Shown piece by piece: positions 5,723 through 24,267 of a stretch of DNA of 33,655 bases. The notes beneath the pieces are model-generated. The model saw nothing but the letters and a program-made list of their open reading frames with translations. It was not told the DNA's origin and did not search any database. The stretch's first letter is position 1; each line of letters opens with the position of its first letter. The stretch spans positions 1-33,655 of the forward strand of contig JAIRNY010000015.1 in the NCBI GenBank assembly GCA_031257835.1, in the 5' to 3' direction. The position numbers and the translations under genes are program-made. The stretch comes from Candidatus Endomicrobiellum cryptotermitis. Lineage in GTDB: Bacteria > Elusimicrobiota > Endomicrobiia > Endomicrobiales > Endomicrobiaceae.

Positions 5723-5986
5723 AGGAGGCAAGAACTTGAAGCGTTTATCCAAAAATGAGATAATAAATACAATTATTATATAAGGGCCAGTTGGAAGTAT
5801 AATTGGCAGGAACTTTCAACATTTTGGCGCTACCCATATGAGATGCGGCGCTTGATATATACGACGAATCCTATAGAATCGTTTAATTTCTTTATGCGCA
5901 AAATTACCAAAAACAAAGGTACATTTTCAACAACTGATGCCTTATTAAAAATGATGTTTTTAGGAATTAAGCGCCTTGAAAAATAG
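5723..5986 (+). pseudogene. IS256-family (mutator-type) transposase, C-terminal remnant
   Basis: The text QELEAFIQK, then an in-frame TGA at 5756, then DNKYNYYIRASWKYNWQELS, TFWRYPYEMRRLIYTTNPIE and SFNFFMRKITKNKGTFSTTD matches the C-terminal end of IS256 transposases (compare 'YTTNPIESFN..LRKVTKNRG'). The frame ends at TAG 5984-5986. The N-terminal two-thirds with the catalytic residues is absent. The sequence at about 6050-6074 (AACAAAATTTTTTACAGGCT) resembles an IS256 terminal repeat, so the right end of the element is probably preserved just beyond the etfA stop. Inactive fragment. Confidence 0.85.
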
Positions 5987-17386: not shown

Positions 17387-17503
17387 ATTATACCGTCTAG
17401 AAAATTGCGTACTTAGTCAACATTATATTAATATCAAACAAAATGCAGCAGATATAAGATTCTAAAACTAGACCAAACTAACTGTTTAAATAAAATTTTT
17501 TAA

Positions 17504-20142: not shown

Positions 20143-23100
20143 CTATTTTTTTGCACTAAATATATTAGACTCTAAGTCTACTAAAAAGTCTTTTATATAT
20201 TCAACTATATTTACGTCATGTATATCTTTTATTAATTTAAACGCATAATGTTTACCAGAAACAAACTTTATCTTATTTGAATAATTATTTATTAACCTTG
20301 CAATATCTAAATTAGAAAAATCTAAAGTTTTAAAAAAGTATATATATAAATACTTAATATCTTCAGAAATTCTTTCTATCCCTATTTTTTGAGCTAAAAG
20401 TCTTAAATTGGTTATATTTAATAACATTTGTGTTTCTTGTGGGATCTTTCCGAAACGATCTAAAAGTTCTAATTTTATACCATCTATTGCTTCTTGACTA
20501 TTTGCATCAGAAAGTTTTCTATAAAATAAAATTCTTATATCCTCTTGAGCAATATAATCTTGAGGGATCAACGCATTAATCTGTAAATCTATAACTGTAT
20601 TTTCTTGTGTTTCTGTTTTTGCTATGTCCACATTCCCTTTAAGTTTACTACCTTCTTCTTTTAAAAGCTTAGAAAACATATCATAACCTATATCTCTTAC
20701 AAAACCGTGCTGACTTTTAGACAAAATAGCACCAGCGCCTCTGATTTCTAAATCCTTTAATGCAAGCCTAAACCCAGAACCTAACTCGCTAAAATCTTTC
20801 ATAGCATGAAGCCTTTTAATCGATTCATCACTTAAATTTTTATTTTTATACAACAAATAACAATAAGCTTTTTGACTGTTTCTGCCAATTCTTCCCCTCA
20901 ACTGATAAAGTTGTGAAAGACCAAAACTTTCTGCTTCTTCTATTATCATAGTGTTAACTGAAGGGATATCAAGTCCAGACTCTATTATAGTAGTGGCAAT
21001 CAAACCATCTAATTTAAAATTTATAAATTCCCACATTACATTCTCTATGTCTTTAGTTCTCATCTGACCGTGAATAACGCCAAGTTTTAATCCGGAAATA
21101 AGTTTTTCAATATTATGCGCTTTTGTCAAAATTGTTTCAACTTTATTATAAACATAAAAAAACTGTCCACTTCTTGACAACTCAGCTTCGATAATGTTTT
21201 TTACTAAATTGTCATCATATAATGCAAGGTTTGTCTCTATAGGTAACCGTCCATAAGGAGGTGTCTCTATTAAAGATAAATCCCTAAACCCAGACAATGC
21301 ACAAGACAAAGTTCGCGGAATTGGAGTTGCTGAAAGTAACAAAATATCTATATGTTTTTTTAAAGATTTAATTTTTTCTTTTTGTTTTACACCAAACTTA
21401 TGCTCTTCATCTATTATTAAAAGCCCTAAATTTTTAAACTCTACATCTTTTTGCAATAATCTATGAGTACCAACAACTATATCTATTGCACCTTTTTTTA
21501 GGTCTTCTACTGTTTTTTTCTGCGCATACTTAGACTGAAACTTACTTAAAACAGCAACACTCGTTGGGAAAAGAGACAACCTATCAGAAAAAGTATTGTA
21601 ATGTTGTTGTGCTAAAACTGTTGTAGGCACAAGCACAGCAACTTGTCTACCATACGTTACCACCTTAAAAGCCGCGCGGAGCGCAATTTCAGTTTTCCCG
21701 TACCCAATATCACCACAAATTAACCTTTCCATGGGATAACTTTTAGAAAAGTCATTCTTTATATCTTCTATAGCTTTTAATTGATCTTGAGTTGCCTCAT
21801 ATGGAAAAGAGTCTTCCAGTTCTTTTTCCCAAGTTGTTTGCTTTTCTAAAGGTAACCTTTTAACTAAACTTCTCTGTGCGTAAAGCAGTAAAAGTTCTTT
21901 AGCAAATTTTGCAGCAGCTTCACGTATTCTAAATTTTACTCTTTCCCAAGAAAGAGTATCCATAGAGTACAATTTAGGTTTAAATCCTTCAATGCCAATA
22001 TACTTTTTTACTGTCTTTATCTCTTCAGGTGGCACATAAAGTTTGTCTGAATTTTTATATTCTATACACAAATACTCACTAACGCTATTTTGTCTTGAAA
22101 TTGTTTTTAGTCCAACGTATCGACCTATTCCGTATTTTTCGTGTACAACATAATCCCCTTGCGATATTTCCCAAATCCCTTCTAAACGTCTACCTTCTTT
22201 AACTTTGGGAAAATTTACAGGCCTTTTTTTATAAAGCATTTGCCTACTAGAAACAAATACCGTTTTCAAACTATCTAAATAAAACCCTTCAGACAAATTA
22301 CCGTACAAAAATTCAATATTTTTACAATTTAACTCACTATCATATAAAATATGTACAATACGCTCTCTTTCGCCTTCGTTGGCACAATAAATTTTAATCT
22401 TAACATTTTGACTTAAGAAATCCTTTAGCGATTTCACAAAAAAGATTGTATCGCCTTGAAAGCCCGTAAAACTTTTATATCCCATATATTTTGATTTCAC
22501 ATTTAGCGGGTCATTAATAAGAAGATCACATTTGTTAAGTTTTTTTTCTTCTTGTTTATCAATTGAATAGTCAAAATATATTATCGTTTCATTTTCTTTA
22601 TTATTGTAAAAGAAATAATCTTTAATAGTAAAGCTGGAATCAGAAATATTTACAGAAAATATCCAAGCATCTTTTAACGTAACATTTGAAAGTTGGCTAG
22701 CTAAATCAAAACATCTTAAAGTTTCAATATTATCGTACTCAAAAACAATTCTCACTGGCATGTCCAAAGATAATGGCCATACATCTACAATTTCGCCTCT
22801 AACTGCAAACTGCAGTTTTTCTTCTACATAATTTGTTCTTGTATATCCAAAAGAAGATAAAGATAATACAAGTTTGTTTAAACTATATGATTTTCCTGCA
22901 GTGATTTTAATGCCTAAATTGTCCTTCGGATTAGAAATTTTTATATTTATTGAATTGTCAGTTGCACAAACTATAAAATTATTTAACATTTTTATTTTTT
23001 CTGTAGTGACAATTCTTGTTTGCATATCGTCATACGGAAATAAAAAAATGTCGATACTATCTTTAAAAAAACACTTTAAATCATCATAAAAAGAATTTAG

Positions 23101-23226
23101 TTCTTCAGGTTTAACAAAAGTAAAAATACGAAGTGCACAATTTTTTAGATTTTTTATTTGATTAATATACCTAAACAAAAAATGTGCTTTTGCAGACGCA
23201 TTAATGCCTGACAAATAAGTTATCAT
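20143..23226 (-). CDS. mfd: Transcription-repair coupling factor Mfd
   Basis: Removes RNA polymerase stalled at DNA lesions and recruits UvrA. The UvrB-like N-terminal part (1-180) ends in [13 protein letters not shown]. The polymerase-interaction domain (about 355-420) begins [17 protein letters not shown]. The superfamily 2 helicase core has GDIGYGKT (505-512), DEEH (606-609), [12 protein letters not shown] and QLRGRIGRN. The C-terminal domain contains [10 protein letters not shown]. At 1027 residues it is about 120 shorter than the E. coli protein, with the loss mostly in the N-terminal and linker regions; all catalytic motifs are kept. No strong ribosome site is evident. The 174-bp inverted-repeat element lies just upstream. 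Confidence 0.97.
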
Positions 23227-23234
23227 AGCTTATA

Positions 23235-23408
23235 ACCTGAGTTTGTACTTTTTAGTTATACAGATTATCAAACCAGTAAAATTAATCTAGTGCAGTATCA
23301 TATCTACGTTACTAGAGTAATTTAACTACCTGGCTTGATCGTTTAATACCCATAATTGATACTTTTATAAGTGAATCATTCAACTTTTTAAAAAGTACAA
23401 ACTCAGGT
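23235..23408. repeat. 174-bp non-coding element bounded by perfect 20-bp inverted repeats
   Basis: ACCTGAGTTTGTACTTTTTA at 23235-23254 is the exact reverse complement of 23389-23408. Inside are nested complementary arms: ATCAAACCAG (23267-23276) with CTGGCTTGAT (23330-23339), where the one mismatch is a G-U wobble if the minus strand is transcribed, and AAATTAATCTAGT (23279-23291) with ACTAGAGTAATTT (23311-23323), one mismatch. The element fills the lipA-mfd gap, beginning 8 bases past the lipA stop and ending 8 bases before the mfd start. It may be a MITE-like transposable element or a structured RNA within the transcript. I see no second copy here and no clear target duplication. Confidence 0.75.
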
Positions 23409-23415
23409 ATTGACA

Positions 23416-24267
23416 TTAATCAAATTTTTTAAAATATTTTTCAGACAAATAAGAACTCCGTATATATCTACCAACTATTACTTGTTTTATACCTATAGAA
23501 GCAGCAAAATCTTCTATACGTTTAAACTCTTCATCAGTGTATTCTTTTATTATAGGATAATGGTCTTTTGTTGGCGAAAGATATTGCCCTATTGTTAATA
23601 TATCTATATTTGCACTTTTTATGTCTTTAATAGTTTTAAAAAGTTGTTCTTGAGTTTCGCCTAAACCAACCATAATGCCTGTTTTAACTTGAAAAGAAAA
23701 AGATTTAGCACGCTTTAAAATATTTAAAGAACGCATATAGTCTGCGCCTATACGAACTTTATCGTATAAACCAGAAACTGTTTCTAAATTATGAGCAAAA
23801 ACATCTGGTTTTGCGTTCAATATCATATCTACAGAACTAATATTACCTAAAAAATCTGGTACTAGCACTTCAACTTTTGTTTGTGGAACTATTTTTTTTA
23901 TTTTAAAAATAGTTTTTACAAAATGAGACGCTCCTCCGTCACGTAAGTCATCCCTAGTTACAGATGTTATAACACTATAGGAAATACCTATTTTTTTAAT
24001 TAATTTTGCTATTTCTATAGGTTCTTTTTCATTTAAATGTTCTGGTTTATGTTTTTGGACTGAACAAAAACTACACTTTCTAGTACAGTTTTTACCAAGT
24101 ATTAAAAATGTTGCTGTTTTATTTTTAAAACATTCACCTATATTTGGACATTTAGCACTTTGACAAACAGTATTAAGGCCACGCGACTTAATTTCTTTTT
24201 TTAAAGATATAACATCGGCAACAGATATTCTTTTTTTTGCTAATTTTGCTAAATTTAAACTTTGCAA
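23416..24267 (-). CDS. lipA: Lipoyl synthase
   Basis: Radical-SAM enzyme inserting two sulfurs into octanoyl chains on carrier proteins to make lipoyl groups. The auxiliary cluster Cys (C35, C40, C46 in CQSAKCPNIGEC) and the radical-SAM CxxxCxxC (C61, C65, C68 in CTRKCSFC) are all present, as is the C-terminal RSSY segment. At 283 residues it is near normal. The start is a TTG at 24267 with AAGGGA eight bases upstream; no nearer ATG would keep the N-terminus. No lipB, gcvH or 2-oxoacid dehydrogenase gene is in the window, so its client is unseen. Confidence 0.96.
   Translation of the reverse strand: MQSLNLAKLAKKRISVADVISLKKEIKSRGLNTVCQSAKCPNIGECFKNKTATFLILGKNCTRKCSFCSVQKHKPEHLNEKEPIEIAKLIKKIGISYSVITSVTRDDLRDGGASHFVKTIFKIKKIVPQTKVEVLVPDFLGNISSVDMILNAKPDVFAHNLETVSGLYDKVRIGADYMRSLNILKRAKSFSFQVKTGIMVGLGETQEQLFKTIKDIKSANIDILTIGQYLSPTKDHYPIIKEYTDEEFKRIEDFAASIGIKQVIVGRYIRSSYLSEKYFKKFD

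Follow-up and report, generated by a model that had tools for sequence, protein, structure and literature searches.

Bacterial MITEs such as Chunjie, ERIC, and the QMITE2 element of Coxiella are short, AT-rich, non-coding, and intergenic, with inverted terminal repeats and hairpin folds; partial copies are common, and nesting has been reported in the form of BOX/RUP/SPRITE clusters (PMC10969869). In the Cardinium endosymbiont, a MITE burst is confined to one host-restricted symbiont lineage, and an intact parental IS982 element is present (PMC9769881). Quasi-palindrome correction by template switching, through which imperfect arms become identical via shared changes, is likewise documented (PMC8794818, PMC8604942). 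The locus described here resembles all three systems in these respects. It differs from the bacterial MITEs in that neither a target-site duplication nor a parental IS was identified and in that the copy under study is a scar of composite origin, not an intact MITE, from Cardinium in that a search for three transposase families found no intact member, and from documented quasi-palindrome correction in that the event is inferred from three genomes rather than directly observed. We consider it highly probable that small non-coding mobile elements, inserted one into another and since decayed, make up this element and that its arms were perfected by template switching; we do not take it for a conserved regulatory RNA.

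The window, by which we mean the whole stretch of DNA analyzed (33,655 nucleotides), spans a single contig from end to end; the draft genome to which it belongs is 1.05 Mb in size and is a Candidatus Endomicrobiellum MAG (Elusimicrobiota). Its Mfd protein shares 93% identity with the Candidatus Endomicrobiellum incisitermitis protein and 81% with the Ca. E. cubanum protein (best segment), values indicating that the source is a termite-gut Elusimicrobiota symbiont. The 174-bp element (23235-23408, minus strand), delimited by its arms, is non-coding, AT-rich, and intergenic. It lies between the upstream gene lipA (23416-24267, minus strand), an identity consistent with its radical SAM domain and genus synteny, and the downstream gene mfd (20143-23226, minus strand), likewise consistent with its domain content and genus synteny. 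The gap between the two genes is 189 bp, so that 8 + 7 = 15 bp remain outside the element. The stem begins 7 nt after the lipA stop codon, and an AGG within its 3' arm is located 9 nt ahead of the mfd ATG. A promoter scan gave one promoter-like match, below the count in shuffled sequences, and a terminator scan gave no terminator-like site. In Ca. E. cubanum and in the genome G004 (L057, L203, upstream of mfd), no lipA was detected beside mfd, and many other genus members have the two genes adjacent. Elsewhere in the window, positions 5723-5962 match part of an IS256/Mutator-type transposase (PF00872, E 9.4e-12), and a TGA interrupts the reading frame of this fragment.

Over their full 20 bp, the outer arms (23235-23254 and 23389-23408) pair without a mismatch, each being the reverse complement of the other across a spacing of 134 nt; when arms as much as 500 bp apart are allowed, the window's next-longest perfect inverted repeat is 14 bp. 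Among 100 windows simulated with a first-order Markov model from the dinucleotide frequencies of the window, the longest perfect inverted repeat with arms within 500 bp averaged 12.8 bp and never exceeded 16. The 20-bp inverted repeat is confirmed, at a length well outside what chance produces. Sequence inspection places a nested 10-bp pair at 23267-23276 (ATCAAACCAG) and 23330-23339 (CTGGCTTGAT), with one mismatch that becomes G-U in minus-strand RNA and A-C in the plus strand (halves given on the plus strand). A nested 13-bp pair, also carrying one mismatch, is formed by 23279-23291 (AAATTAATCTAGT) and 23311-23323 (ACTAGAGTAATTT) of the plus strand; its 5' half overlaps the MITE1 remnant described below. 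On the exact arms and their spacing, both nested pairs, the strand on which the 10-bp mismatch still pairs, and an element that fills nearly all of the lipA-mfd gap (174 of 189 bp), our results agree with the earlier sequence-only reading. For 23220-23420, the predicted fold of the minus-strand RNA is −57.1 kcal/mol and that of the plus strand is −50.4 kcal/mol, each with a z of −6.3 relative to shuffles; because z is equal for both strands, pairing strength does not reveal the strand of action. It is barely credible that the structure reflects chance or an assembly artefact. The genome is indeed a draft metagenome assembly, and repeats break contigs nearby in relatives, but the arms stand far above the chance distribution, and two other assemblies independently contain parts of the element at this locus.

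Six distant genus members (L172-L174, L176, L177, L183) have a lipA-mfd gap of about 10-50 bp, and a seventh (G012) has a longer one of about 330 bp. With the two genes almost end to end in the more distant Endomicrobiellum genomes, the 174-bp element is an insertion into a short ancestral gap. A search by eye for a target-site duplication at the junction found none, and the empty sites offered nothing alignable. Across the window's own genome (G000) and 59 related genomes, the full-length 174-bp unit occurs only as the window's own copy, and nowhere else in its own genome is there a significant match to the 20-bp arm. Read from lipA to mfd, the element consists of an 81-nt copy of a palindromic repeat that we call family 2, a 40-bp piece of the terminal repeat of a second family, MITE1, and then the arm complementary to the first.

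The family-2 copy (23328-23408, minus strand) is complete and decayed. Read from 23408 to 23328, it aligns end to end with G000:C21:5928-6011, the other full copy in the same genome and at a separate site (score 59, against 33 for the best of 2000 shuffles), and over most of its length with a family-2 copy in G017 (score 64, against a shuffle best of 36). Family 2 is about 85 bp long, has terminal inverted repeats with ACCTAATTTTGTCCTTTT-type ends at both sides, and is also present as full copies at G017:C19, G023:C10, and G031:C17 and as half copies at G000:C2 and G017:C5. Similar flanks suggest that the G000:C21, G017:C19, and G023:C10 copies represent one orthologous site. The family is thus dispersed over unrelated sites, namely, the lipA-mfd junction and one other full site among the four genomes, and because its copy number is low, the argument for its mobility rests mainly on these two. 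No target-site duplication was found for family 2. The lipA-side outer arm (23389-23408, minus strand) is the left end of the repeat: the alignment starts at the terminal ACCT, and the HMM match extends from 23408 to 23363. The mfd-side arm (23235-23254, plus strand), its perfect complement, matches family 2 weakly and best in inverted orientation, to the left end, with 2 of 2000 random sequences scoring equally well. We rejected this arm as a normal second family-2 end in view of the weak match; it may be a copy of the opposite arm or a remnant of a second family-2 end.

The interior of the element belongs to MITE1. A 40-bp remnant of the MITE1 terminal inverted repeat (23282-23321, plus strand) has its best match within its own genome at E 1.1e-6 (91% over 33 bp) and in G017 at E 1.1e-7 (88% over 40 bp), and element positions 48-87 match many dispersed places in these two genomes and in G023 and G031. 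Full MITE1 copies are about 194 bp long, too short for a transposase, and carry opposed ends of the TCTAGTTTAGAATCTTATC / GATAAGATTCTAAACTAGA type (46 copies). Matches number 23 in G000, 20 in G017, 26 in G023, and 44 in G031, with none in the other 38 of the 42 genus genomes, and these counts exceed copy numbers somewhat, as some matches are two pieces of one copy. Inspection of the flanks of 17 and then 46 copies revealed no consistent direct repeat that would mark a target-site duplication. The two ends within one MITE1 copy are identical at 16.5 of 19 positions, compared with 16.0 when partners are shuffled, and 0 of 5000 shuffles reached as high a value. This likeness is a mild parallel to homogenization of the arms at lipA-mfd, and shared subfamily descent could also produce it. 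Unusual variants such as TCTAGAGTAG appear at both ends of one copy (L032).

Several further features of MITE1 were recorded. A short MITE1 end without the rest of the element lies in the window at 17453-17487 (AAACAGTTAGTTTGGTCTAGTTTTAGAATCTTATA, minus strand), just beyond the clpB stop codon. Copies L006, L016, L019, L022, and L029 have yet another palindromic repeat, the third, inserted within them (GGGTCTGTCTAAAAACC ... GGTTTTTTAGACAGACCC, roughly 190 bp), and two contigs of the window's own genome (C12 and C13) terminate at MITE1 copies broken near the same internal position. Close tandem arrays with recurring short spacers occur in G031 and G023 (L230, L235, L239, L246, L248, L250, L251), and similar flanks (GGGACGGTGSTTAATGTC...CTAGTGTCTAAG), possibly repeats of a coding family, surround copies L047, L244, L262, L264, L265, and L199. 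Two candidate assignments were dropped: a profile of extended MITE1 flanks, used to ask whether a longer MITE1 might terminate in the outer arms, reached only 23271, short of the arms, and an integron attC site was discarded by inspection, the repeats having opposed ends and no attC core.

A search of the four MITE1-bearing genomes did not find DDE_Tnp_1, and rve and Transposase_mut are represented there only by fragments with in-frame stops; among these three Pfam families, no parental transposase with MITE1 or family-2 ends was found. Because the first family is absent and the other two persist only as fragments, the elements have probably lost the ability to move unaided. We found no description of either repeat in the literature searched, and a 2024 mBio study of Endomicrobia reports transposons without mentioning MITEs in its main text. 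The two families thus appear to be undescribed, but of a known kind.

These assignments bear on whether the element could be one non-autonomous transposon that moved as a unit, with the 20-bp arms as its terminal inverted repeats. The arms are perfect over 20 bp and resemble family-2 ends, and the sequence between them has the non-coding, AT-rich, intergenic character such an element would have. We nevertheless regard this explanation as very unlikely, given that the 174-bp unit is found here only, that its arm lacks any other significant match in the genome, that a full family-2 copy, ends included, already accounts for half of it, that a MITE1 scar lies inside it, and that no target-site duplication was found. 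The suggestion in the sequence-only reading that the element is MITE-like holds insofar as distant relatives have an empty site, the interior matches MITE1, and half the element matches family 2; what fails is the idea of a single transposon bounded by the arms. The search for copies that it proposed had a similarly divided outcome, with no significant second match to the 20-base arm in its own genome, no further copy of the full 174 bp, and dispersed copies of the parts.

Only three genomes cover the site, those of the window, G017, and G031 (taken to be Ca. E. incisitermitis), and neither relative has lipA and mfd together on a single contig. Downstream of lipA, the G017 contig has a family-2 copy and, immediately after it, a MITE1 copy that continues up to the end of the contig. 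In G031, the two genes are on different contigs with MITE1 pieces beside each: a truncated arm follows lipA, with a full MITE1 some 35 bp further, and upstream of mfd there are MITE1 pieces together with a counterpart of the window's MITE1 remnant and mfd-side arm. Since parts of both insertions are present at the locus in G017 and G031, both appear to be older than the split of these lineages. The fold predicted for the window is preserved in neither relative.

With so few genomes available at this site, the history of the arms rests on few sequences. G017 and G031 both have CCGAGTTTATCC in the lipA-side arm, and the mfd-side arm reads ATGAGTTTGTCC in G031; in the window, CTGAGTTTGTAC and a longer T run are found in both arms. 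Two changes are common to both window arms relative to all available orthologues, and the window's lipA-side arm carries two states that match the mfd-side arm of the relative. The predicted arm duplex is −27.9 kcal/mol in the window versus −14.1 for the relatives' arms. Because the relatives' arms have mismatches and the window's arms share derived changes, the perfect pairing looks recent. G017 and G023 also carry the TAC variant in the left arm of family 2 at a different site, which leaves some doubt about where it arose. Arm-to-arm template switching seems the best account of the perfect arms, since one arm-copying event would cover both substitutions and the length change. Such switching is the usual form of quasi-palindrome correction in replication. 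Template switching that creates, repairs, or perfects hairpins has been documented (PMC8794818, PMC8604942, PMC7202029).

A selected structure in the lipA-mfd mRNA would explain the same pairing differently, as a translation-coupling hairpin in which the stem hides the Shine-Dalgarno-like AGG until the ribosome ending lipA opens it. Consistent with such a role, the fold is strong (z −6.3), the stem is only 7 nt from the lipA stop, both arms share derived changes, and the genes are co-directional with short ancestral gaps. We find this quite improbable, however: G031 has ATT in place of AGG and carries the two genes on separate contigs, the lipA-side arm in G017 is followed by a MITE1 copy that the contig end truncates, the insertion is absent from distant relatives, the two strands fold about equally, and the element has neither an Rfam match up to E = 1 nor a terminator-like site. 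As the fold is not conserved, a conserved regulatory RNA is disfavored. The structured RNA offered in the sequence-only reading fares no better: the two close relatives in which parts of the locus survive both have a disrupted fold, and the arm covariation is explained without selection. Its proposed folding of the minus strand did yield a strong structure (−57.1 kcal/mol, z −6.3), one that the plus strand equals in z, and its covariation check met a fold that is interrupted or split in G017 and G031 and an insertion that is missing in distant relatives. A lineage-specific takeover, in which the inserted repeats now act as a translational-coupling hairpin whose perfect pairing is kept by selection aided by template switching, is in our estimation very improbable; if true, synthesis of the repair factor would depend on lipA translation. 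A selected function of the hairpin is unlikely, and any effect on lipA-mfd expression would be incidental.

Returning to nested decay followed by template switching, which we favor, the events could have proceeded as follows. In a common ancestor of G000, G017, and G031, the ~85-bp family 2 would have entered the then short space between lipA and mfd, and MITE1 (~194 bp) would later have inserted at or beside that copy. In the window's lineage, nearly all of MITE1 would then have been deleted, leaving one 40-bp terminal-repeat scar, and, as a last step, the flanking arms would have been turned into perfect complements through arm-to-arm template switching. The comparisons show directly that the element is inserted, what it is made of, that MITE1 occupies the site in relatives, and that the relatives' arms are mismatched; the sequence of steps, the mechanism behind the perfect arms, and the lack of a selected function are inferred from them. 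The site is mainly one of ordinary nested MITE decay, together with an instructive signal of arm homogenization. For the organism, it points to small elements having multiplied in a burst confined to one lineage, in a symbiont genome that is shrinking and in which the three transposase families tested have no intact member, with repeat copies sitting where the gene order of relatives differs and where assemblies break. It also carries a warning, in that perfect pairing with shared changes in both arms, normally taken as a sign of functional RNA, here has a simpler mutational explanation.
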